Source: Alphaproteobacteria bacterium | Lineage (GTDB): Bacteria; Pseudomonadota; Alphaproteobacteria; Micropepsales; Micropepsaceae | DNA: 41,476 nucleotides | Direction: 5' to 3' | Assembly (NCBI GenBank): GCA_028865545.1 | Contig: JAGWJY010000032.1 | Span: forward strand, 1-41,476 | Shown: positions 30,348 through 41,476 of the stretch, one piece after another | Numbering within the stretch: the stretch's first letter is position 1 | Layout of the letters: each line of letters opens with the position of its first letter | Made by a program: the position numbers and the translations under genes | Notes under the pieces: model-generated | What the model was told of the DNA's origin: nothing | The model's database searches: none | The model's input: the letters and a program-made list of their open reading frames with translations, nothing else

Positions 30348-30551
30348 TCAGTTGAAGGCGTTGCCCGGCTTGATCCCGAGTTTGCGGAAGACGATGGCGG
30401 CAGGACAGAAGCCGGTGACGCTCGCCTGGATCATGTTCAGGCCGGCAAAGGCGCTGAGCAGCAGCCACCAGGGACTGTAAAGCTGGGCCAGCACGAGGCC
30501 GGCAAGTACGACAAGACCGGCGAAGAAAAGAACGGCGCGATCAACGTTCAT
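30348..30551 (-). CDS. DUF2892/YgaP-like small membrane protein
   Basis: A 67-residue protein starting MNVDRAVLFFAGLVVLAG, with two membrane helices (about 6-24 and 27-43) and the DUF2892 C-terminal pattern GFCPAAIVFRKLGI, including one Cys in the FCP motif. DUF2892 proteins accompany rhodaneses and SQRs in sulfur-stress loci, and the YgaP C-terminal membrane domain is related. The ATG lies 20 bases after the SQR stop with AAGGAG upstream, so it is co-transcribed with the SQR gene. Confidence 0.88.
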   Translation of the reverse strand: MNVDRAVLFFAGLVVLAGLVLAQLYSPWWLLLSAFAGLNMIQASVTGFCPAAIVFRKLGIKPGNAFN

Positions 30552-30571
30552 GGTGATGTCTCCTTTTCTGT

Positions 30572-31849
30572 TCAGCGGGCGCGGCGCAGGCGGCGGATGC
30601 CAAAAGTTTCCATCGCCCAGCGTTCGTAGAAGGGTTCGCTTTCGCCGCGGCGCACCTTGCGCATGAAGTATTTCTCGAAGGCGATCTTGGCGTAATGCAC
30701 CCACCGGCCCTTCGACGACCAGTTGAGATTGCGCGGTGGAATCTGCGGCTCGGCGACAAAGGCCACGCCGCCATCGCCGAAGTCGGCGAGGCAGATCGCG
30801 TTCCAGCTTGCCTCTTCCGTCACCTCGGCGCCCTTCAGCAGAGCGCCGATGTTGTGCGCGGTCGCGGTCACCATGGACTCGATCATGAAGCCGGTCTTCG
30901 GCACGCCCACGGGCACGGGCGTCGGCCCCACCGGCGCGATCGCCACGCAAACGCCGATGCCGAAGACATTCGGATAGGTTGGATTGCGCTGCTTTTTATC
31001 GACAACGATGAAGCCGCGCGGATTGGTCAGGCCTTCGAGACCGAGCACGGCTTTCACGCCGCGGAAGGCCGGCAGCATCATGGAGAAACCGAACGGCAAC
31101 TCATGCGTCTTGCGCACCGCGCCATCGTCGCCAACTTCTTCCACCGTCATCTTGCCGGCCTCGACCTGGCGAACGCGAGCGCTGGTGATCCATTTGATGT
31201 GATGTTCGCGCAGCTGCCCTTCGAGAAGGCCTTTGGTGTCGCCGACGCCATCGAGGCCGAGATGGCCGATATAAGGTTCCGAGGTGACGAAGGTCATCGG
31301 CACCTTGTCGCGAATCTTCCGCTTGCGCAGTTCGGCGTCGAGGATGAAGGCGAATTCGTAAGCCGGACCGAAACAAGAGGCGCCCTGCACGGCGCCGACA
31401 ACGATGGGGCCCGGATTCTTGACGAAGTCCTCGAACGCCGCATGCGCCCGCTCGGCGTGATCGACATGGCAGATGGACTGCGTATGCGCCAGGGGACCAA
31501 GGCCGACGATTTCGTCGAAGGCAAGGTCGGGACCTGTGGCAATGACCAGATAATCATAAGAGACGTTGGAGCCGTCGTTGAGCTCGACCCGGTTCTCCTT
31601 CGGGTGGACGCGCTTGGCGCCCTGCGACTGATAATTGATACGTTTGCGCGCCATCACTTCGTGCAAGTCGATCTCGATTTCGGCGCGCTGCCGCCAACCG
31701 ATCGCAACCCACGGATTGGACGGCACGAAATGATAACGCTGGTCCTGACCGACGATGGTGAGGCGGTCGCTCGGCCCGATAAAGGGCAGCAATTCATAGG
31801 CCATCAGCGTTCCGCCGAGGCCCGCTCCAAGCACTACGATGTCAGCCAT
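30572..31849 (-). CDS. sqr: Sulfide:quinone oxidoreductase
   Basis: A 425-residue FAD protein with a Rossmann motif VLGAGLGG at 7-13. Cysteines at 127, 159 and 353 match the spacing of the three redox/sulfur-binding cysteines of Acidithiobacillus ferrooxidans SQR (128, 160, 356); a fourth, Cys301, lies near the flavin region (GIGVCVAIAP). SQR oxidises sulfide at the membrane, passing electrons to quinone and forming polysulfide or persulfide. The C-terminal Arg/Lys-rich amphipathic segment (about 380-425) suits peripheral membrane binding. The ATG at 31849 is preferred for its GGGAGG box. Divergent from a SqrR-like repressor, which probably controls it. Confidence 0.92.
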   Translation of the reverse strand: MADIVVLGAGLGGTLMAYELLPFIGPSDRLTIVGQDQRYHFVPSNPWVAIGWRQRAEIEIDLHEVMARKRINYQSQGAKRVHPKENRVELNDGSNVSYDYLVIATGPDLAFDEIVGLGPLAHTQSICHVDHAERAHAAFEDFVKNPGPIVVGAVQGASCFGPAYEFAFILDAELRKRKIRDKVPMTFVTSEPYIGHLGLDGVGDTKGLLEGQLREHHIKWITSARVRQVEAGKMTVEEVGDDGAVRKTHELPFGFSMMLPAFRGVKAVLGLEGLTNPRGFIVVDKKQRNPTYPNVFGIGVCVAIAPVGPTPVPVGVPKTGFMIESMVTATAHNIGALLKGAEVTEEASWNAICLADFGDGGVAFVAEPQIPPRNLNWSSKGRWVHYAKIAFEKYFMRKVRRGESEPFYERWAMETFGIRRLRRAR

Positions 31850-31952
31850 GGCCACCTCCCGTGTCGACGACAAATTGACGGCGATTCGGGGCGCCGTCGT
31901 TGATTTGCCGCAATGTTTTCCGCAGCGAGCCGGTGTTCTTTAACATCGGCGC

Positions 31953-31983
31953 TTGACTATATATACGAACAAACGTATATACG
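31953..31983. promoter_or_regulatory. Divergent promoter with SqrR-type palindromic operator
   Basis: On the plus strand TTGACT (31953-31958) and TATATA (31976-31981) are 17 bases apart, a near-consensus promoter for the repressor gene. The spacer holds the palindrome TATATACG-AACAAA-CGTATATA (31960-31981), which overlaps the -10 and would block RNA polymerase when bound. On the minus strand the symmetric TATATA (31965-31960) could be the -10 for sqr. Confidence 0.8.
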
Positions 31984-31988
31984 CAAAT

Positions 31989-32345
31989 ATGAAAATAAAA
32001 CCTGACCAGATGCTGGCTTCGGCCGGCGAAGCCGAGGAGCTCCTGAAGGCGATCGCCAACCGGCACCGCCTGACGATCCTCTGTCAGCTGATCGACGGCG
32101 AACGCTCGGTCGGCGAACTTGCGGACATCCTGGCGCTGCGCGATTCGACGGTGTCACAACACCTGGCGCTGCTGCGCAAGGACGGCCTCGTCTCCACGCG
32201 GCGCGACGGCCAGACCATCTGGTACGCCATCGCCAGCACCCCGGCGCGGAAACTTCTGGAAACGCTTTATCAGATCTATTGCGCGCCTGCGGCCATCTGC
32301 AAACCGGTCGCCGCCAAGCGCGCTAACCCGAAAGCAGGCAAATGA
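31989..32345 (+). CDS. ArsR-family repressor of the SqrR/BigR persulfide-sensing type
   Basis: A 118-residue winged-helix protein with the ArsR core ANRHRLTILCQLIDGERSVGELADILALRDSTVSQHLALLRKDGLV and an RDGQTIWYAIA wing. From the ATG at 31989, cysteines lie at 32 and 98, 66 residues apart. That equals the spacing of the dithiol pair in SqrR (41/107) and BigR (42/108), which form a polysulfide bridge on persulfidation and release DNA. An in-frame TTG at 31953 is rejected because it is the -35 box. It overlaps the rhodanese start (ATGA) and is divergent from sqr, the known target type. Confidence 0.9.
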   Translation: MKIKPDQMLASAGEAEELLKAIANRHRLTILCQLIDGERSVGELADILALRDSTVSQHLALLRKDGLVSTRRDGQTIWYAIASTPARKLLETLYQIYCAPAAICKPVAAKRANPKAGK

Positions 32346-32692
32346 GCATCACGAATCTCTCAGCGAGCGAGCTTGCGCGCGCCTTCAAGGAAGACAGCGT
32401 CCTTCTCATCGACGTGCGCGAGCCAGGGGAATACGCCGCCGAACGCATTCACGGCGCGCTGCTGTTTCCGCTCTCCACCTTCGATCCGCATGCCTTGCCG
32501 GACTGCGGCAAACGCACCGTCGTGTTTCAGTGCGGCTCCGGCGTGCGCTCGGCACGCGCCGTCGCCGCCTGTCAGCGGGCGGGGCTACCGCATGACACGC
32601 ATCTGAGGGGCGGCATCCAGGCCTGGAAGATGTCCGGGCTTCCCACCATCACCGTTGATCCCGCGACAGGCCACACGCGCGACCGCAGATAG
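32342..32692 (+). CDS. Single-domain rhodanese
   Basis: A 116-residue rhodanese domain: LLIDVREPGEYAAERIHGALLFPLS, then the active-site loop CGSGVR (Cys64 to Arg69) within VVFQCGSGVRSARAVAACQRAG, then LRGGIQAWKMSGLP. Rhodaneses move sulfane sulfur via a cysteine persulfide, here probably handling the product of SQR. The start overlaps the repressor stop by 4 bases, so the two are translated together. Confidence 0.93.
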   Translation: MSITNLSASELARAFKEDSVLLIDVREPGEYAAERIHGALLFPLSTFDPHALPDCGKRTVVFQCGSGVRSARAVAACQRAGLPHDTHLRGGIQAWKMSGLPTITVDPATGHTRDRR

Positions 32693-32702
32693 GATTCAGA
32701 CG

Positions 32703-33704
32703 ATGGGCTTCCTCGCCAGCATTCTCGCCTTCTTCGGACTCGGCGGACATCCGGCTCCTCCCCCGCCGGCGCCGCCGAAGACCTATCTGGTGGCGCCTAC
32801 CATGGTGGCTGACGAGAAAGCGGTGTTCGCCACCATCGAGTCGGCGAATGTTGTGCCGGCGCGCGCGCGCATCGGCGGCACCATCATCGAACTCCATGTC
32901 CGGCAAGGCGACCGCGTCGAGCAGGGGCAGTTGATCGCCACCGTCGGCGACCCGAAGCTGGCCTTGCAGGTGAGTTCCTACAGCGCTCAGGTACAGGCGG
33001 CCCAAGCACAACTGGCTCAGGCGAAACTCGATTACGACCGGGCGCAAAGATTGATCGCGGCCGGCGCCATCGCCAAGAACGCCTTCGATCAGGCGCGCAC
33101 GGCATATAATGTGGCGGCCTCCAATGTGCGCTCGCTGGATGCGCAGCGCGCGGTGATACAGCAGCAATCCGTGGAGGGTCAGGTGCTGGCGCCGACGGCC
33201 GGCCGCGTCATTACCGTACCGGTGACGTCAGGAACCGTGCTGCTGCCCGGCGATACGGTGGCGACCGTGGCCGAGCAGAATTTCGTGCTGCGCCTGGAAG
33301 TGCCCGAACGCCACGCCCGCTATATCAAGGTCGGCGATCCCATACGTCTGGATGGCACCGACATCGGCCTGGATGGGCCGCGCTTCGGCACCATCAAGCT
33401 GGTCTATCCGCAAATCGCGGACGGCCGCGTCATGGCGGACGCCACCGTGGACGGGCTCAGCGACTATTTCGTCGGCGAGCGCGTGCGCGTCTGGGTGTCG
33501 GCGGGCGACCGCAAGACCATCGTGGTGCCGGCGAATCTGATCGTCACCCGTTCGGGCATCGACTACGCCAAACTGCGGCTCAAGAGCGGCGCAGCGATCG
33601 ACGTGCCGGTGCAGCGGGGCGAGACGATCCAAACACCCAAACAGCATGACGGCCTCGAGATCCTTTCCGGACTGCAATTCGGCGACAGGCTGCTCAAGCC
33701 ATGA
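32703..33704 (+). CDS. RND-pump periplasmic adaptor (HlyD/membrane-fusion family)
   Basis: A 333-residue protein. The N-terminal anchor is hydrophobic (about 3-12), followed by a Pro-rich linker. Then come the lipoyl-like ARIGGTIIELHVRQGDRVEQGQLIATVG, an alpha-hairpin at about 80-145 (QVQAAQAQLAQAKLDYDRAQRLIAAGAI), and beta-barrel/membrane-proximal strands. Adaptors connect an inner-membrane RND pump to an outer-membrane channel. The next gene starts inside its stop codon (ATGA). The gene starts 10 bases after the rhodanese stop and so belongs to the repressor-led operon. Confidence 0.9.
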   Translation: MGFLASILAFFGLGGHPAPPPPAPPKTYLVAPTMVADEKAVFATIESANVVPARARIGGTIIELHVRQGDRVEQGQLIATVGDPKLALQVSSYSAQVQAAQAQLAQAKLDYDRAQRLIAAGAIAKNAFDQARTAYNVAASNVRSLDAQRAVIQQQSVEGQVLAPTAGRVITVPVTSGTVLLPGDTVATVAEQNFVLRLEVPERHARYIKVGDPIRLDGTDIGLDGPRFGTIKLVYPQIADGRVMADATVDGLSDYFVGERVRVWVSAGDRKTIVVPANLIVTRSGIDYAKLRLKSGAAIDVPVQRGETIQTPKQHDGLEILSGLQFGDRLLKP

Positions 33705-36700
33705 GACTAGGACTTTCGGGACGCCTGACGCGCGCGACCATCCAATCGCCGCTGACGCCCCTCTTTCTGCTTGCCGCCATCGTCTTCGGCATTGTGGCGC
33801 TGGCGACCATTCCGCGCGAGGAAGAACCGCAGATCAGCGTGCCGATGGTCGACATCTTCGTCACCGCCAACGGCTTGAAGGCACCGGATGCCGCCGAACT
33901 GGTGACCAAGCCGCTGGAAGAAATCGTCAAGGGCATTCCGGGCGTCGAGCACGTCTACAGTCAGACGCAGGACGACCGGGTTCTGGTGACGGCGCGCTTC
34001 TTCACCGGCACCGATGCCGACGAAGCTATCCTGCGCGTACAGGCCAAGCTCCGCGCCAATTACGACAAGCTGCCGCTCGGCATACCGGAACCGCTGATCG
34101 TCGGCCGCGGCATCAACGACGTGGCGGTGGCGGTGCTCACCCTGTCGCCGAAGCCGGACGCGGCGGCGCGCTGGAATGAGGAAAATCTCTACACCCTCGC
34201 GACCAAGGTGCAGGCGCGCCTCAGCCAGGTCGACAATGTCGGCCTTACCTATATCGAAGGCGGTTCCGCGGACGAGATCAGCGTCGAACCCGATCCCGAG
34301 AAGCTTTCGCTCTATGGCGTCACGCTGCAGCAGCTCGAGGCCAAGATTCAGGGCGCCAACCGCTCCTTCCTGGCGGGCGCGCTACGCGAAAACGACAAAA
34401 TGTTCCAAGCTGTCGCCGGCAAGACGCTGTCGGGCGTGCCGGACATCGGCTTGCTGCTGATCACCACCCGCGACGGCCGGCCGGTCTATGTGCGCGACGT
34501 CGCCAAGGTGATTATCGGGCCGAGCCCCGCCGAGCATCATGTCTGGACGCTCAGGCGCCAGGGCAAGAATTGGTCGACGGCGCCGGCGGTCAGCGTCGCC
34601 TTCGCCAAGCGGACGGGTTCCAATGCCGTAGTGGTGGCCGAGCAACTGATCCAGCGTGTCGACGGACTGAAAGGCACGCTGATTCCCAGCGACATCAACG
34701 TCGAGGTGACACGCGATTACGGCAAGACCGCCAACGACAAAGCCAACGAGCTTCTGTTCCATCTGACGCTGGCGACCGTGTCGATCGTGCTGCTGATCGG
34801 ATTCGTCATCGGTTGGCGCGAAGCGGCAGTGACATTGATTGTCATCCCGACCACGATCCTGCTCACCCTCTTCGCCGCCAATCTGATGGGTTACACCATC
34901 AACCGCGTCAGCCTGTTCGCGCTGATCTTCTCCATCGGTATCCTGGTCGACGACGCCATCGTGGTGGTGGAGAACATCGCCCGGCATTGGGACATGCAGG
35001 ACGGGCGAACGCGCCTTCAAGCAGCCATCCAAGCCGTCGCCGAGGTAGGAAACCCGACGGTCGTGGCGACGCTGACGGTGATCGCCGCGCTGCTGCCGAT
35101 GCTGTTCGTCTCCGGCATGATGGGCCCCTACATGGCGCCCATTCCCGCCAACGCCTCGGCGGCGATGCTGTTCTCCTTCTTTGTCGCTATGGTGGTGGCG
35201 CCCTGGGCGCTGCTGCGCCTGGCCGGCAAAGGCAAAGGCCCGCCGCCGGGCGAGTTCCACACCGAAGGCGCCATCGGACGCTTCTATCGCCGCATGGCGG
35301 CGCCCATCGTCAGTTCGAAACGCAACGCCAAGCGCTTCCTCGCCTATGTCGCCATCGGCACGGTGCTGGCCTGCATGCTGTTCGTCACCAAGGACGTGAC
35401 GGTGAAACTGCTGCCCTTCGACAACAAATCCGAGCTGGAAGTGATGATGGATCTGCCGGAAGGCGCCACGGTGGAAGACACCTCGCGCGCCCTGCTGCGC
35501 GCCGCCGCCGTCACCGAAGGCCTGCCGGAGGTGACGTCCATCCAGGTTTATGCCGGCACCCCCGCGCCGTTCAACTTCAACGGTCTGGTGCGGCATTATT
35601 ATCTGCGCGAAAATCCCGAACAGGGCGAGTTGCAGGTCAATCTCGCCGACAAGTCGAACCGCGACCGCGAAAGCCATGCCATCGCACTCGACCTGCGCCA
35701 CAAGCTCGACGCCATGTCCTGGCCGAACGGCACCGTGGTGAAGGTGGTGGAAGTGCCGCCCGGTCCGCCGGTGCTGGCGACGCTGCTGGCGGAAATCTAC
35801 GGCCCCGACCTGAAGACGCGCCGCGCCGAGGCGGAAGAGGTCAAGAAAATATTCAAATCGGTGCCGTATATCGTCGACGTCGACGACTCCTATGGTCAGC
35901 CTCGGCCGCGCCTGCGCATCACCATCGACCAGGACAAGCTGGAATATTTCGGTGTTGACCAAAGCGACGTCTACGACACGCTGAGCATGCTGCTGGGCGG
36001 CGTGCCGGTCGGCTATTCGCATCGCGGCCAGGACCGTAACCCGATCGAGATCGTGGTGCGCGAGCCGAAGAGCGACCTTACCTGGACCCAAAGACTGGCC
36101 TCGACGCCGGTGCCCGCCAACACCGTGCCCGGCAGCAAGGCGGTGGTCGAACTGGGCGACATCGTGCATGTGACGCGCGAAGCCGGCTCGCCGGTGATCT
36201 TCCGTCGCGACATGCATTACGCCGACATGATCACCGGCGAATTGGCCGGCGAATACGAAGCGCCGATCTACGGCATGTTCGCCGTAGACAAGCTCATACA
36301 GTCACATGACTGGGGCAAGCTGCAGCGGCCGACGATCCTGTTCCACGGCCAACCGACCGACGAAACCCATCCCTCGCTGTTGTGGGACGGAGAATGGGAA
36401 GTCACCTATGTCACCTTCCGCGATATGGGCGCCGCCTTCATCGTCGCCCTTTTGGGAATCTATGTCCTGGTGGTCGCGCAATTCGGCAGTTTCAAGCTGC
36501 CGCTGGTGATCCTGACGCCGATCCCGCTGACGCTGATCGGCATCGTGCTCGGCCATTGGCTGTTCGGCGCGCCGTTCACCGCCACCTCGATGATCGGCTT
36601 CATCGCCCTGGCCGGCATCATCGTACGAAACTCCATCCTGCTGGTGGACTTCATACGCCACGGCAAAGGCGAAAGCGGCAAGCCGCTGCGCCAAGTACTT

Positions 36701-36985
36701 CTTGATGCCGGCGCGACACGCTTCAGGCCGATCCTGCTCACCGCGCTGGCGGCGATGATCGGCGCGGCGACCATCCTCACGGATCCGATCTTCCAGGGGC
36801 TGGCGATCTCGCTGTTGTTCGGCCTGACATCGTCGACACTATTGACCGTGCTGGTGATCCCGGCGATCTATATCTGGCTGCGCGATCCGGAGAGCCCGGT
36901 GCAGACGACGCCGGATGGCTGGCGCATGGTCTATGCGGCGAACAGCAGGCTGCAGGGCTTCATCGGACGATTCTTCCGCAAATGA
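33701..36985 (+). CDS. RND-family efflux pump permease
   Basis: A 1094-residue transporter with the 12-helix RND layout. TM1 is at about 21-37, the porter domain includes REEEPQISVPMVDI and PLEEIVKGIPGVEHVYS, a first TM cluster at about 350-530 includes IGILVDDAIVVVENIARHW, and a second cluster from about 905 includes VALLGIYVLVVAQFGSFKLPL and IGFIALAGIIVRNSILLVDFIRHG. The VDDAIVVVENI acidic pair is the proton relay. No outer-membrane channel gene is nearby, so it may use a shared TolC. The substrate is unknown; the operon with rhodanese and a SqrR-type repressor suggests a sulfur compound or something formed under sulfide stress. Confidence 0.95.
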   Translation: MRLGLSGRLTRATIQSPLTPLFLLAAIVFGIVALATIPREEEPQISVPMVDIFVTANGLKAPDAAELVTKPLEEIVKGIPGVEHVYSQTQDDRVLVTARFFTGTDADEAILRVQAKLRANYDKLPLGIPEPLIVGRGINDVAVAVLTLSPKPDAAARWNEENLYTLATKVQARLSQVDNVGLTYIEGGSADEISVEPDPEKLSLYGVTLQQLEAKIQGANRSFLAGALRENDKMFQAVAGKTLSGVPDIGLLLITTRDGRPVYVRDVAKVIIGPSPAEHHVWTLRRQGKNWSTAPAVSVAFAKRTGSNAVVVAEQLIQRVDGLKGTLIPSDINVEVTRDYGKTANDKANELLFHLTLATVSIVLLIGFVIGWREAAVTLIVIPTTILLTLFAANLMGYTINRVSLFALIFSIGILVDDAIVVVENIARHWDMQDGRTRLQAAIQAVAEVGNPTVVATLTVIAALLPMLFVSGMMGPYMAPIPANASAAMLFSFFVAMVVAPWALLRLAGKGKGPPPGEFHTEGAIGRFYRRMAAPIVSSKRNAKRFLAYVAIGTVLACMLFVTKDVTVKLLPFDNKSELEVMMDLPEGATVEDTSRALLRAAAVTEGLPEVTSIQVYAGTPAPFNFNGLVRHYYLRENPEQGELQVNLADKSNRDRESHAIALDLRHKLDAMSWPNGTVVKVVEVPPGPPVLATLLAEIYGPDLKTRRAEAEEVKKIFKSVPYIVDVDDSYGQPRPRLRITIDQDKLEYFGVDQSDVYDTLSMLLGGVPVGYSHRGQDRNPIEIVVREPKSDLTWTQRLASTPVPANTVPGSKAVVELGDIVHVTREAGSPVIFRRDMHYADMITGELAGEYEAPIYGMFAVDKLIQSHDWGKLQRPTILFHGQPTDETHPSLLWDGEWEVTYVTFRDMGAAFIVALLGIYVLVVAQFGSFKLPLVILTPIPLTLIGIVLGHWLFGAPFTATSMIGFIALAGIIVRNSILLVDFIRHGKGESGKPLRQVLLDAGATRFRPILLTALAAMIGAATILTDPIFQGLAISLLFGLTSSTLLTVLVIPAIYIWLRDPESPVQTTPDGWRMVYAANSRLQGFIGRFFRK

Positions 36986-37773
36986 CCACCGTTCAGATTA
37001 TCCTGTCTTTGCTGTCAGGCGGTGTCGTCGGCTTGTCGCTGGGTCTGGTCGGCGGCGGGGGTTCCATTCTAGCCGTGCCGCTGATGGTCTATGTCGTCGG
37101 CGTTTCGTCGCCACATGTCGCCATCGGCACCAGCGCCGTGGCGGTTGCCGCCAACGCCCTGACCAATCTCTTCGGCCATGCGCGCGACCGCAATGTGAAA
37201 TGGCCGTGCGCCTCGGTGTTCGCGGTGGCGGGGATCGTCGGCGCGGCATTGGGCGCGGAGTTCGGCAAAGCCGTCGACGGCGCCAAGCTGCTGGCTGGAT
37301 TCGGCCTGCTGATGATTGTCATCGCGGCTTTGATGCTGCGTCCCAGGCGCGGCGGTGATGATCCGCAGGTGCGTCTTGAAGCGGCGTCCGCGCCGCGCCT
37401 GCTGCCGCCCCTGGCGGGCACAGGTTTCGGTGTCGGCGCCTTGTCAGGATTTTTCGGCATCGGCGGCGGCTTCCTCATCGTGCCGGGCCTCGTCACCGCG
37501 ACATCGATGCCACTGCTCAATGCCATCGGCTCATCGTTGGTGTCGGTGGCGGCCTTCGGCGCCACGACAGCGGTGAGTTATGCGATCTCCGGCATGGTCA
37601 ATTGGCCGCTGGCGGCACTCTTCATCGCCGGCGGCGCGCTCGGCGGCTTCGCCGGCATACGCCTGGCCCGTAAGCTTGCCGCAAGGCGGCGCGCGCTCGG
37701 CCTGATCTTCAGCGGCGTGGTCGCCACCGTCGGCATCTATGTTCTGGTAAAGGGCATCGCCGGGCTTCTCTGA
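36982..37773 (+). CDS. TauE/SafE-family membrane exporter
   Basis: A 263-residue protein with seven or eight helices and the TauE/SafE signatures: LSLGLVGGGGSILAVPLMVYVVG, AIGTSAVAVAANALTNL, and, in the second half, GALSGFFGIGGGFLIVPGLV and NAIGSSLVSVAAFGA. Family members export sulfite, sulfoacetate or related organosulfur anions. Overlap with the RND pump stop (ATGA) makes it the last gene of the repressor-led operon. A role in removing sulfite or thiosulfate made from sulfide fits the context, but is inference. Confidence 0.92.
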   Translation: MTTVQIILSLLSGGVVGLSLGLVGGGGSILAVPLMVYVVGVSSPHVAIGTSAVAVAANALTNLFGHARDRNVKWPCASVFAVAGIVGAALGAEFGKAVDGAKLLAGFGLLMIVIAALMLRPRRGGDDPQVRLEAASAPRLLPPLAGTGFGVGALSGFFGIGGGFLIVPGLVTATSMPLLNAIGSSLVSVAAFGATTAVSYAISGMVNWPLAALFIAGGALGGFAGIRLARKLAARRRALGLIFSGVVATVGIYVLVKGIAGLL

Positions 37774-37950
37774 CATAGCGGCAAACCGCCGTGTTAACGC
37801 AATCACGATCCCGGGTCGCGCGAACGGGTGAGACTTTCCCGTATCCGCGCTGCGACCATTCGCGCCACGGCGGAAAATCCGCCGCATTGTCCCCCCAAGC
37901 TGAAGGTGCATGCTGTCCTGGGGCAACGTTCTTAGAAAACATTCAGGTCA

Positions 37951-38685
37951 ATGGATCAGCAAATCGACGACATTGGCCAGCTGGCTCTGGTCAAGCCTGT
38001 TATTCCGTACGCCGACGATACGACGGCACCGGATTATCTGCTGCTCCATTATTGGTGGGCCTATGCCCATCCCTGGGCGGTGAAGTTCTTCGACCGCCAT
38101 TGGATCATCAATCTCATCCTGCTGGGAAATTACCGGCGGCTGCGCGACGTTGCGCTGACCGAATTCGGCAAGGCTATCTCCGGCAACACGCTGCAGCTGG
38201 CCTGCGTCTATGGCGATCTCACCTGCCAATTGGCCAGGCGCGTCGTTGCCGGCGGCGGTAATCTGGACATTGTCGACATCCTGCCGATCCAGCTGCGGAA
38301 TCTGAAATGGAAACTTCCCTGCCGGTCGCCGGTGCGGCTGCTGCGCATGGACACCACGGCCCTCGAGCTGCGAGACGAGAGTTACGACCGTGTGCTTCTG
38401 TATTTTCTGCTGCACGAACAGCCCGCCAGCGAGCGCAAAAGAACACTGCGCGAAGCGCTGCGCGTCGTGAAACCGGGCGGCAAAGTCATGGTCCTGGATT
38501 TCGCCTCGCCCTATTGGTGGAATCCTCTGCGCTACATCTGGCGGCCTTTGCTGGCGCTGCTCGAGCCTTTCGCGCTCGACCTGTGGCGAACGGACATCGC
38601 GGAGCTGCTGCCGCCGCTTTATACGGACATCCGGCGCGAGCGCTTCTTCGGCGGTTTCTTTCAAAAAATCGTCATAACCCGCTGA
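37951..38685 (+). CDS. rquA: RquA-like rhodoquinone biosynthesis enzyme
   Basis: A 244-residue protein with a class-I methyltransferase-like fold that resembles RquA from memory: DYLLLHYWWAYAHPWAVKFFDRHW, ILLGNYRRLRDVAL, VYGDLTCQLA, DIVDILPIQLRNLKWKLP, RVLLYFLLHEQP, and WWNPLRYIWRPLLALLEPFALDLWR near the C-terminus. The SAM motif I, normally ExGxGxG, reads LACVYGD, an RquA-type deviation. RquA converts ubiquinone to rhodoquinone using SAM as amino donor, giving a low-potential quinone for anaerobic fumarate reduction. It stands alone, 177 bases after the sulfide locus. Confidence 0.82.
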   Translation: MDQQIDDIGQLALVKPVIPYADDTTAPDYLLLHYWWAYAHPWAVKFFDRHWIINLILLGNYRRLRDVALTEFGKAISGNTLQLACVYGDLTCQLARRVVAGGGNLDIVDILPIQLRNLKWKLPCRSPVRLLRMDTTALELRDESYDRVLLYFLLHEQPASERKRTLREALRVVKPGGKVMVLDFASPYWWNPLRYIWRPLLALLEPFALDLWRTDIAELLPPLYTDIRRERFFGGFFQKIVITR

Positions 38686-38715
38686 GGCCGACATCCATCG
38701 ACACCCATGCTACCT

Positions 38716-38730
38716 GTCGTTGCAAACGAC
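38716..38730. promoter_or_regulatory. Small perfect palindrome between rquA and the next gene
   Basis: GTCGTT-GCA-AACGAC lies just upstream of the small membrane gene. It could be an operator or a weak hairpin after rquA; there is no immediate T-run. Confidence 0.3.
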
Positions 38731-38827
38731 TGCGGCAGGATTTTTCCCATCTTTGCGTGTAGGATGGCGCCGCGCACGGCCCGCAAGAGACCGGCAGCAC
38801 CATCATGGGATCAACTCGGAGGGAATG

Positions 38828-39121
38828 ATGCATCCGTTCTTTTTTTTCGGCGCCATTCATCACGCCGTCTTGCTGGCCGTTCTGGCATTCTTCGTTCTGT
38901 TTGCCGCCAGCAAGGCCGACGGCTTTGTCAAGATTCTCGGTAACGTCCTCGGCTATCTGCTGCTGATTTGCGTGGTCCTCTGGATCATCGCTGTCGTCCT
39001 GGGACCGGTGCTCGGTATTCATCCCTTCGGGACGATGAGCTTTAACGACATGCATCCGGGCATGGGACCGCATTGGGCCCATCCGCCCATGCAACCAATG
39101 CAAGCGCCGCCGGCCAAATAA
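38828..39121 (+). CDS. Small membrane protein with His/Met/Pro-rich tail
   Basis: A 97-residue protein with the start ATG at 38828, six bases after a GGAGG box; an adjacent ATG at 38825 is too close to it. Two membrane helices at about 8-26 and 34-56 are followed by an exposed tail rich in His, Met and Pro (DMHPGMGPHWAHPPMQPMQAPP). Such tails can bind copper or other soft metals, but this is only a composition-based guess. No family is recognised. It ends just before a strong terminator. Confidence 0.6.
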   Translation: MHPFFFFGAIHHAVLLAVLAFFVLFAASKADGFVKILGNVLGYLLLICVVLWIIAVVLGPVLGIHPFGTMSFNDMHPGMGPHWAHPPMQPMQAPPAK

Positions 39122-39147
39122 TTCGTCAAGCGCCAAGTTGGGATTTC

Positions 39148-39180
39148 GGCGGCGAAGACACGGTCTTCGCCGCCTTTTTT
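39148..39180 (+). terminator. Rho-independent terminator
   Basis: Arms 39148-39159 and 39163-39174 pair perfectly over 12 bp with a 3-base loop, followed by six T residues. It ends the small membrane gene unit. Confidence 0.92.
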
Positions 39181-39266
39181 ATGCCCATCGCCTCGTTATT
39201 CTGTAGAAATAGCCTGTGGAGACCGGATGAAAACGGTCCCAGGAAAACCAAGAGAGGCCCGGAAAC

Positions 39267-40289
39267 ATGCCCCAGACACGCCGTACGTTCCTCGCAACAG
39301 GAGCTGCGCTGACGGCCGCCGCTTATGCCGAAGCCGCGCCCGAGCCCTTCGGCACTGTGCAGCGGCTGAGCCCGAAGCTCGACGCGCTCATCGCGCCGGA
39401 CGCCATCGTCGAGCGACTTGGCGGCGGCGTCAAATGGGCTGAAGGTCCGGTGTGGGTGAAGAACGGTTCCTATCTGCTGTTCAGCGATCCGCCGAAGAAC
39501 ACCATGTATCGCTGGTCGCAAAAGGATGGCATCAGCGTATTCCTGCATCCGTCAGGCTATGCCGGCGACGATCTCAAGCCGTTCCGTGAACCCGGATCGA
39601 ACGGGCTGGCGATCGACGCCAGGGGCGCGCTGATCGCTGCTGATTCCGGCAACCGCGGGCTGACGCACATCGACCTCAAAACCAAACGCAAGCACGTTTT
39701 CGTCGACCGCTATGAAGGCAAGCGCTTCAACAGCCCCAACGACCTGTGCATCGCCCGTTCGGGTGCGATCTATTTCACCGATCCGCCTTACGGCCTCGCC
39801 GGGCTCGAGAAATCGCCGGCCAAGGAATTGCCCTTCAGCGGTGTCTATCGCTGGACCCCCGACGGCAAGGTGGCGCTGATCGATCAGACCTTCCTCTATC
39901 CCAACGGCGTCGCGCTGTCGCCGGACGAGACCACGCTTTACATTTCCAACACCGACGTCAAACAGCCGATCATCCGCGCCTATCAACTCGGCGCCGACGG
40001 CATGCCGACCAGCTTCTCAACACTGTTCGACACCACCCCGCTGATCAAACCCGGCGTACCGGGCATGCCGGACGGTATGAAGGTCGACGCCGCCGGCAAT
40101 CTGTTCGCCGCGGGGCCGGGGGGCATCATGGTGCTGACCAAGGAAGGCGAATTGCTGGGCATCATCAGCGCCGGCAAACGCGCCATGCCGAACTGCGCCT
40201 TCGGCGAGGACGGTCACAGCCTATTCCTAGCGGCGACGGATTCCATCGCGCGGATCCGGGTGAAGACCCACGGCCAGGGCTGGACGTAA
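39267..40289 (+). CDS. SMP-30/gluconolactonase-like exported protein
   Basis: A 340-residue beta-propeller hydrolase with a Tat signal (RRTFLATGAALTAAAYAEA). SMP-30/gluconolactonase blocks are present: WAEGPVWVKNGSYLLFSD, NGLAIDARGALIAAD, NSPNDLCIARSGAIYFTDPPYG, YPNGVALSPDETTLYISN, and MPDGMKVDAAGNLFAA. The Glu, Asn and Asp of these blocks are the metal ligands. The family hydrolyses sugar lactones; the exact lactone is unknown. It lies between a strong terminator and the convergent lpdA gene. Confidence 0.9.
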   Translation: MPQTRRTFLATGAALTAAAYAEAAPEPFGTVQRLSPKLDALIAPDAIVERLGGGVKWAEGPVWVKNGSYLLFSDPPKNTMYRWSQKDGISVFLHPSGYAGDDLKPFREPGSNGLAIDARGALIAADSGNRGLTHIDLKTKRKHVFVDRYEGKRFNSPNDLCIARSGAIYFTDPPYGLAGLEKSPAKELPFSGVYRWTPDGKVALIDQTFLYPNGVALSPDETTLYISNTDVKQPIIRAYQLGADGMPTSFSTLFDTTPLIKPGVPGMPDGMKVDAAGNLFAAGPGGIMVLTKEGELLGIISAGKRAMPNCAFGEDGHSLFLAATDSIARIRVKTHGQGWT

Positions 40290-40295
40290 CCGTCC

Positions 40296-41476
40296 TCACA
40301 TCTGCATCGTCCAACCTTCGACGCCCATCGCCGCCTGACGCACAGCTTCGGTGAGAGTGGGATGGGCGTGCGAGGTACGCGCGATGTCTTCAGAGGCGAT
40401 GCCGAGTTCGACGGCCAGCGCCGCTTCGGCGATCAGGTTGCCGGCCTCGGGGCCGAGAATGTGCACGCCGAGCACCCGATCGGTCTTGGCGTCGGCGAGA
40501 ACCTTGGCGAAACCGTCGGTCGCGGCGATGGTCTTGGCGCGCGCATTGGCGGTGAAGGGAAACTTGCCGACCTTGTAGGCGATGCCGGCCGTCTTCAGTT
40601 CCTCTTCGGTCTTGCCGACAGAGGCCACTTCCGGCGCGGTGTAGACCACGGCCGGGATGGCGTCATAATTCACATGCCCCGCCTTGCCGGCAATGCGTTC
40701 GGCGCAGGCCACCGCTTCATCTTCGGCCTTGTGGGCGAGCATGGCGCCTTCGCGACAGTCGCCGATGGCATAGATGCCCGGTACGTTGGTCTTGAAATGT
40801 GCGTCGGTGACGATGCGGCCGCGCACGTCCAGTGCCACACCGATCTTGTCCAGTCCGAGACCATCCGTATACGGACGGCGACCTATGGAGACCAGCAGCA
40901 CGTCGGTGTCCACTGTCTGGCGGTCGCCGCCGGCCGCTGCTTCCAGGCTGACGCGCAGTGACTTGCCGATCTTCTCGACGCCGACCACCTTGGTGGAAAG
41001 CTGGAACTTCATGCCCTGCTTCTGCAGGATGCGCTGGAACTGCTTGCCGATCTCGCCGTCGAGGCCCGGCGTGATGCGATCGAGGAATTCCACGACCAGC
41101 ACTTCGCTGCCGAGCCGCCGCCACACCGAGCCAAGCTCGAGGCCGATATAGCCGCCGCCGACCACCAACAGACGCTTGGGCACTTCCTTGAGGGCCAGCG
41201 CGCCGGTGGAGCTGACGATCTGCTGCTCATCGACGGTGACGCCGGGCAGCGGCATCACATCCGAGCCCGTGGCGACGATGATATGCTTGGTCTCCAGCGT
41301 GCGCAGCGTGCCGTCCGCCGCTTTGACCTCGACCTTGCCGGGGGCTGCGATGCGCGCCTCGCCGACGATGGCTTCCGACTTGTTCTTCTTGAGCAGGAAT
41401 TCGACGCCCTTGGTGAGTTCGCCGACCACCTTGTCCTTGTGCGCCATCATGGTGGGAAGATCGAGACTGACCTGGG
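40296..41476 (-). CDS. lpdA: Dihydrolipoamide dehydrogenase (E3), N-terminus cut off by window edge
   Basis: About 393 C-terminal codons are present; the start and the FAD redox-disulfide region lie beyond the right edge. Visible parts are the FAD/NAD segments (HIIVATGSDVMPLPGV, RLLVVGGGYIGLELGSVWRRLG), AIGDCREGAMLAHKAEDEAVACAERIAG, and the dimer interface ending SHAHPTLTEAVRQAAMG with the catalytic His-Glu pair. E3 reoxidises lipoyl groups of the 2-oxoacid dehydrogenase complexes. An ATG at 41450 is internal and not the true start. Confidence 0.95.
   Translation of the reverse strand, partial: QVSLDLPTMMAHKDKVVGELTKGVEFLLKKNKSEAIVGEARIAAPGKVEVKAADGTLRTLETKHIIVATGSDVMPLPGVTVDEQQIVSSTGALALKEVPKRLLVVGGGYIGLELGSVWRRLGSEVLVVEFLDRITPGLDGEIGKQFQRILQKQGMKFQLSTKVVGVEKIGKSLRVSLEAAAGGDRQTVDTDVLLVSIGRRPYTDGLGLDKIGVALDVRGRIVTDAHFKTNVPGIYAIGDCREGAMLAHKAEDEAVACAERIAGKAGHVNYDAIPAVVYTAPEVASVGKTEEELKTAGIAYKVGKFPFTANARAKTIAATDGFAKVLADAKTDRVLGVHILGPEAGNLIAEAALAVELGIASEDIARTSHAHPTLTEAVRQAAMGVEGWTMQM

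Follow-up and report, generated by a model that had tools for sequence, protein, structure and literature searches.

Rhodoquinone is an electron carrier for low-oxygen life, and the gene described here adds a member to the known family of RquA enzymes. It lies in a window of 41,476 nucleotides, the whole contig C100 of a 3.4-Mb draft genome (95.7% complete) of the genus Rhizomicrobium (Micropepsaceae), a soil bacterium. The gene encodes an authentic RquA, an identity as sure as sequence permits. Very probably, RquA provides rhodoquinone to a complex II run in reverse, as a stable and largely vertically inherited trait of one clade, and the unit for sulfide:quinone oxidoreductase (SQR) in the same window is independent of it. 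RquA would replace a ubiquinone methoxy group with an amino group donated by SAM, yielding rhodoquinone; the ubiquinone substrate can be supplied by the encoded oxygen-independent UbiTUV route. At low oxygen, complex I and other donors would hand their electrons to this carrier, and rhodoquinol would pass them on to complex II, which in reverse would act as fumarate reductase. The enzyme's identity, the pathway genes and the pattern of clade and neighbourhood can be read from the sequences, and from them we infer enzyme activity, rhodoquinone production and the reversal of complex II.

Features of the window discussed in the text
Feature	Position	Strand	Basis or remark
small YgaP-like membrane protein	30348..30557	-	PF11127, 43.1 bits (cut-off 25.3)
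SQR, sulfide:quinone oxidoreductase, A. ferrooxidans-like	30572..31873	-	482.7 bits to 3sz0
FNR/FixK-type box TTGATTTGCCGCAA	31900..31913	+	predicted; at SQR promoter
palindrome CGTATATACG	31974..31983		likely BigR operator; sole window site with at most one mismatch
BigR-like ArsR regulator	31989..32345	+	NF033788 (ArsR subfamily), 87.7, over cut-off 55
rhodanese	32342..32692	+	PF00581, 56.2 bits
HlyD/RND periplasmic adaptor	32655..33704	+	TIGR01730, 112.9 bits (cut-off 94.9)
RND efflux permease	33701..36985	+	PF00873, 493 bits
TauE/SafE sulfite exporter-like	36982..37773	+	PF01925, 166.8 bits
GCCGCATTG element, promoter-like	37881..37889	+	70 nt before rquA ATG
rquA, predicted SAM-dependent ubiquinone-to-rhodoquinone enzyme	37951..38685	+	NF038261 score, tree, structure model
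small ORF, 133 aa	38720..39121	+	no Pfam/NCBIfam match; 3' of rquA in five genus genomes
SMP-30/gluconolactonase-like (SGL) gene	39267..40289	+	PF08450, 137.8 bits; frequent rquA neighbour (synteny)
lpd, dihydrolipoyl dehydrogenase-like (name presumed)	40296..41450	-	listed from internal ATG, probably cut by contig end

Identity of the RquA protein

The rquA open reading frame is intact from ATG to stop and encodes 244 aa; the antisense frame (37948-38694) is likewise open, and the RquA family match is on the plus strand. Over model positions 2-218 of 218, the product scores 263.1 bits against the RquA equivalog model of NCBIfam (NF038261, cut-off 175), whereas the UbiE-type models TIGR01934 and NF001244 give 45 and 41 bits against cut-offs of 158 and 216. 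Pfam detects a generic UbiE/methyltransferase domain (PF01209, 50 bits). The preliminary description had pointed to RquA-like blocks and a non-canonical SAM motif, and both are found. All three blocks are present (YWWAYAHPWAV at residues 34-44, LPIQLRN at 111-117 and FLLHEQP at 152-158), and SAM motif I, TLQLACVYGDLT, differs in the alignment from that of three annotated UbiE/MenG proteins (VLDIAAGTGDLT, VLDLAGGTGDLT and CLDLCCGTGDLT): RquA reads LQLACVYGDLT where the UbiE type has LD.A.GTGDLT, and the other RquA rows are altered likewise.

Among 93 aligned RquA rows, D109 is aspartate in every one. The position of D134 is aspartate in 81 rows, asparagine in 10 and serine in 2, one asparagine being counted twice as L039 and L072 are identical (one duplicated locus); in the near relative L051 this position is asparagine. 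Compared with published residue numbers, the spacing of 25 between D109 and D134 equals that of D118 and D143 in R. rubrum RquA. Replacement of D118 and D143 together is reported to abolish rhodoquinone synthesis, and the first 40 residues of the R. rubrum enzyme are described as dispensable (PMC9814641). An AlphaFold model of the window protein (mc57bccff05b2, pLDDT 87.8, pTM 0.85) shows a Coq5-like fold, with SAM-bound yeast Coq5 (PDB 4obw) as its best match among solved structures; the low confidence of residues 1-17 agrees with the dispensable N terminus of R. rubrum RquA.

A tree of 94 rows separates 91 RquA sequences from two UbiE and one UbiE-like sequence at 100/100 and places the window protein on the RquA side. 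Its outgroup consists of UbiE and UbiE-like sequences, without UbiG. Placement with ordinary UbiE methyltransferases, which the preliminary description had named as the outcome that would speak against RquA, was not found in this tree. An earlier tree with distant methyltransferases was distorted by long branches and was rebuilt minus eight of nine of these, L048 and one MenG. The root of the rebuilt tree falls inside Rhizomicrobium, to which we attach no meaning; a split with 100/98 support divides the Rhizomicrobium copies from the other 74 RquA rows.

The window protein therefore resembles R. rubrum RquA and the NF038261 family in its over-cut-off score, altered motif I, equally spaced aspartates and unordered N terminus. 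With the UbiE/Coq5 C-methyltransferases it shares the fold and a distant sequence similarity, but its motif I is changed and its scores lie far below the UbiE cut-offs. A mislabelled member of the UbiE/UbiG group, with ordinary C- or O-methyltransferase activity, would fit the fold, the Coq5 structural match and the weak PF01209 similarity, but we consider it highly improbable in view of the RquA score, the split from UbiE and a motif I altered as in other RquA rows.

Inheritance and neighbourhood of rquA in Rhizomicrobium

A degenerate-pattern scan of 84,980 species genomes at a loose threshold returned 424 places encoding relatives of the query, and the best 80 of the 424 were kept. Within the genus, rquA is over the cut-off in 14 of 60 genomes (8/37 and 6/23). 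In a combined LPD and SdhA tree of 59 genomes, 11 of them with under half of the columns, a single branch (92/99) divides all 14 from the rest. Without a root, this tree does not distinguish a gain of rquA from the retention of an ancestral copy. In the tree of SdhA alone, the 11 rquA-bearing rows with SdhA again lie on one side (99); in that of LPD alone, the rquA pattern needs three changes, not one. rquA looks like the inherited mark of one branch of Rhizomicrobium. It had been described as rare and patchily distributed, and the patchiness fails inside this genus, where the carriers make up one side of the housekeeping tree; rquA can thus persist in a clade as a stable trait and keep its site. 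U32 (ubiU/ubiV-type) genes accompany rquA in all 14 carriers as against 8 of the 46 other genomes. The Fisher p of 1.8e-8 for this co-occurrence takes kin genomes as independent and is thus overstated; on the tree it represents one independent contrast.

The usual neighbour of rquA is lpd, not SQR. The two genes adjoin in 12 of the 14 rquA-bearing genomes, mostly with the SGL gene between them; the exceptions are G066, which has the SGL gene and no lpd in the stretch seen, and G082, which has neither. Around lpd in 20 rquA-less genomes, no SGL gene or rquA turned up; three of these stretches end too soon past lpd to tell. The 133-aa ORF follows rquA in G000, G021, G031, G067 and G072. The Rhizomicrobium copies differ from other RquA both in their separate grouping and in their usual place beside lpd.

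All 13 rquA copies of the lpd/SGL site have a GCCGCATTG-type element upstream, 62 to 71 nt ahead of the start codon that our script selected, in G066 and G067 as one-base variants. The extra rquA copies of G007 and G032 are without it, and neither G082 copy passed the start finder. This conserved element argues for a separate rquA transcription unit, despite a simple scan that found no sigma-70 promoter-like site in 36900-39300. Sharing of the element with ubiTUV was considered and rejected: with at most one mismatch it precedes ubiT in 3 of 13 cases, at differing distances (ubiT was located in 13 of 15 loci). A genome-wide search for the pattern with spacings of 14-18 gave four matches and its reversed control two; these spacings exclude the rquA site itself (19), so the search says nothing on a regulon.

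Three genomes, G007, G032 and G082 (loci L039, L040, L273 and L274), carry two rquA each. In the RquA tree, the extra copies of G007 and G032 cluster with the two G082 copies in a separate set (99/95); L039 and L274 have asparagine at the second key aspartate. According to PMC5953543, no organism holds both Group A and Group B RquA. The idea that these three genomes combine the two groups was dropped, the extra copies being one set. Elsewhere, four Rhodoplanes genomes and Rhodovulum sp. PH10 (L066, L067, L068, L071 and L082) have two divergent rquA within a locus of about 20 kb. A further rquA occurs in a metagenome-assembled genome labelled Anaerolineales (Chloroflexota; L097) and is placed among proteobacterial sequences; this contig is likely mis-binned. 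Transfer by plasmid or phage was also rejected, as the 4 + 4 records matched in the plasmid and phage collections are weak and partial (27-32% identity over no more than 59% of the query) and none is an RquA.

No paper on rhodoquinone in Rhizomicrobium was found in our literature search, and none on rhodoquinone with Micropepsaceae or Micropepsales was among the matches listed. A 2026 survey extended predicted rhodoquinone to 24 orders (PMC13386864), and its table of these orders may include that of the window. Our results place rhodoquinone in a Rhizomicrobium clade with a cultured rquA-bearing member, R. electricum DSM 21034 (L062), so that its formation, its control by oxygen and its use with succinate dehydrogenase are open to experiment.

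Rhodoquinone and complex II

The preliminary description held that the organism, if the enzyme is active, makes rhodoquinone and can run fumarate reduction. Rhodoquinone production is strongly predicted from the identity of RquA; fumarate reduction, for which no dedicated frd was found, stands less firmly. In E. coli, expression of an rquA from a different phylum is reported to have yielded no rhodoquinone (PMC13386864). For an oxygen-independent ubiquinone supply, the ubi genes looked at comprise ubiT, ubiU and ubiV, each over its own cut-off on contig C6, and a ubiD-family gene. The oxygen-independent pathway is reported from 73 of 84 RquA genomes (PMC11707229). Beside ubiTUV, contig C6 encodes a FixL-like sensor kinase and cytochrome bd subunit I, both short of their model cut-offs (474 against 850 bits and 754.6 against 968 bits, respectively). 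Locus L279 is a low-oxygen island of the same genome: within about 10 kb it holds ubiTUV together with genes for response regulators, a FixL-like kinase and cytochrome bd subunit I. The genome encodes the 49-kDa subunit of complex I and two Crp/FNR-family regulators over the cut-off, one with an N-terminal cysteine cluster; no menD was over the cut-off in the genome. A second protein of the complex I 49-kDa/30-kDa type, encoded at L293 (706-2199), matches NiFe-hydrogenase below the cut-off and is reminiscent of group 4 hydrogenase or Hyf-type complexes.

A genome search for fumarate reductase, as the preliminary description had proposed, yielded one complex II flavoprotein. It is of the sdhA type (best label 'sdhA_forward', 968 bits) and is preceded by sdhC and sdhD. 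No second flavoprotein of a dedicated frd type was found in the 95.7%-complete draft, the only other substantial match being at the level of L-aspartate oxidase. Nor was sdhB found among the ORFs tested in the stretch around and after sdhA, which slightly lowers our confidence in the preferred explanation. Following sdhA, L278 (4746-7502) holds a regulator, an epimerase and an ORF ending in a near-copy of the last sdhA residues, a layout suggestive of an insertion that duplicated the 3' part of sdhA.

With one forward-type complex II and no frd, rhodoquinone-linked fumarate reduction would need succinate dehydrogenase to work in reverse. Complex II in reverse is the rhodoquinone partner described in eukaryotes (PMC5953543). 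This precedent speaks against a use of rhodoquinone chiefly with donors or acceptors other than fumarate, a reading that agrees with the missing dedicated fumarate reductase and that we hold to be unlikely. Rhodoquinone-dependent fumarate reduction is thus credible here, and the reversal of complex II is a weaker prediction than rhodoquinone production itself.

The sulfide unit and its relation to rquA

The preliminary description placed rquA just downstream of an SQR locus and asked which quinone receives the electrons of sulfide at low oxygen. SQR is real: it keeps the three expected cysteines (SICHVDHAE, GASCFGPAYE and NAICLADFG in the alignment to 3sz0), which we take to be catalytic, and its start is more likely the ATG near 31849. 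The two genes are not adjacent, SQR lying on the opposite strand and separated from rquA by the BigR-like, rhodanese, HlyD, RND and TauE genes. The BigR-like regulator scores 89 bits against NF040642, below the cut-off of 155. Its first listed start, a TTG at 31953, lies over the promoter and the operator, and the ATG at 31989 is therefore the more likely start. Across the genus, SQR is found in 16 of 60 genomes, in a module with the YgaP-like, BigR-like, rhodanese, HlyD and RND genes; the YgaP-like gene is beside SQR in 14 of 16 loci. No TauE/SafE match stood beside RND in five other SQR units of the genus with a whole RND gene. As in the BigR operon described for Xylella and Agrobacterium (PMC5823870), a BigR-type repressor is found beside sulfide-oxidising genes; the window unit differs in that its repressor is accompanied by SQR, rhodanese and an RND pump, and the genes examined include no Blh-type fusion.

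The divergent SQR/BigR promoter (31900-31983) combines an FNR/FixK-type box and a BigR-type palindrome, both kept across the genus. The TTGATTTGCCGCAA site is the only FNR/FixK-type match in 30.3-40.4 kb. Among 14 SQR upstream regions of the genus (two of 16 loci are cut by contig ends), 11 have such a box, where dinucleotide shuffles give a mean of 0.17 and a maximum of 3, and 12 have the palindrome (10 exact, two one-base variants; absent in G029 and G035). The conserved box makes sulfide oxidation at low oxygen plausible and slightly sharpens the question of which quinone would then serve SQR. Among the 11 box-bearing genomes, seven are rquA-less (G005, G024, G029, G030, G033, G035 and G061).

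Upstream of the window rquA, neither an FNR/FixK-type box nor a BigR palindrome was found. A FixK-type box precedes none of 18 Rhizomicrobium rquA copies, or 1/18 with another scoring (one region is a duplicate; two loci near a contig end were left out). Other taxa differ: while Rhizomicrobium rquA has its own upstream element, FNR/FixK-type boxes precede 26 of 73 non-Rhizomicrobium rquA genes, many of them related to one another (shuffles: mean 1.1, maximum 5), or 24 of 73 with the alternative scoring (mean 2.67, maximum 8). These sites suggest that low oxygen regulates rquA in many taxa. The matches listed in our literature search for FNR/FixK control of rquA held no rquA; PMC11707229 treats both rquA and FNR, with FNR sites described before ubiTUV, and novelty of the boxes before rquA is thus not claimable. 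In the window's genome, one box precedes cydA and no box at the strict threshold precedes ubiT. By their predicted elements, rquA and SQR have separate control sites.

The SQR unit adjoins rquA only in the three-species clade of the window, as seen in G000 and G031 and deduced for G067, where TauE precedes rquA and SQR is on another contig. In the other four genomes with both genes, SQR lies 54 kb off (G082) or on a different contig (G007, G032 and G062). A link of rquA and SQR in gene order or control beyond this one clade was looked for and not found. On this comparison the two are independent modules whose juxtaposition is lineage-specific, and the closeness of rquA to sulfide genes seems a chance arrangement confined to a single small lineage.

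The alternative is a functional pairing of rquA with the sulfide unit, in which SQR, induced at low oxygen and by sulfide, would pass electrons through rhodoquinone and complex II to fumarate, and sulfide would be detoxified without oxygen. Adjacency in the window's clade would suit such a pair (for G067 across two contigs), as would the box at 11 of 14 SQR promoters and the two Crp/FNR-family regulators, one of them with the cysteine cluster. From other organisms, C. elegans is reported to need rhodoquinone to survive sulfide, with both quinones reported as used by sqrd-1 (PMC11422605), and a sulfur-oxidising symbiont with rquA and frd has been described (PMC8269255). We nevertheless regard a functional pair as unlikely. 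SQR occurs in 7 of 14 rquA-bearing and 9 of 46 rquA-less genomes, which on the tree gives one independent contrast, not favouring a link; SQR is distant or on another contig in the remaining four genomes with both; and seven rquA-less genomes also carry the box. Moreover, the palindrome is missing before the window rquA and the FixK-type box before the 18 Rhizomicrobium copies. Among the 80 rquA loci kept as the best of the 424 places, flanks often being short, a close SQR match is found only in L052 (= G031), a member of the window's clade.

Somewhat less probable still is the specific proposal that SQR under BigR and FNR/FixK control, once brought beside rquA, feeds rhodoquinone and a reversed succinate dehydrogenase in this clade. 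If true, it would be a bacterial counterpart of the sulfide-rhodoquinone-fumarate chain of C. elegans, built on RquA and not on the animal route. Like C. elegans with SQRD-1, rhodoquinone and complex II (PMC11422605), the window's organism would unite SQR, a route to rhodoquinone and complex II; C. elegans makes rhodoquinone from kynurenine-pathway precursors via COQ-2, not RquA, and the system here is predicted from genes. In the preferred reading of two independent modules, the SQR/BigR unit stands upstream of rquA in the window's small lineage only. R. electricum DSM 21034 (G062) also has the SQR unit, so that the sulfide question can be tested in the same organism as rhodoquinone production. 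In another locus, L129, a flavin oxidoreductase matching SQR at 26% directly follows rquA.
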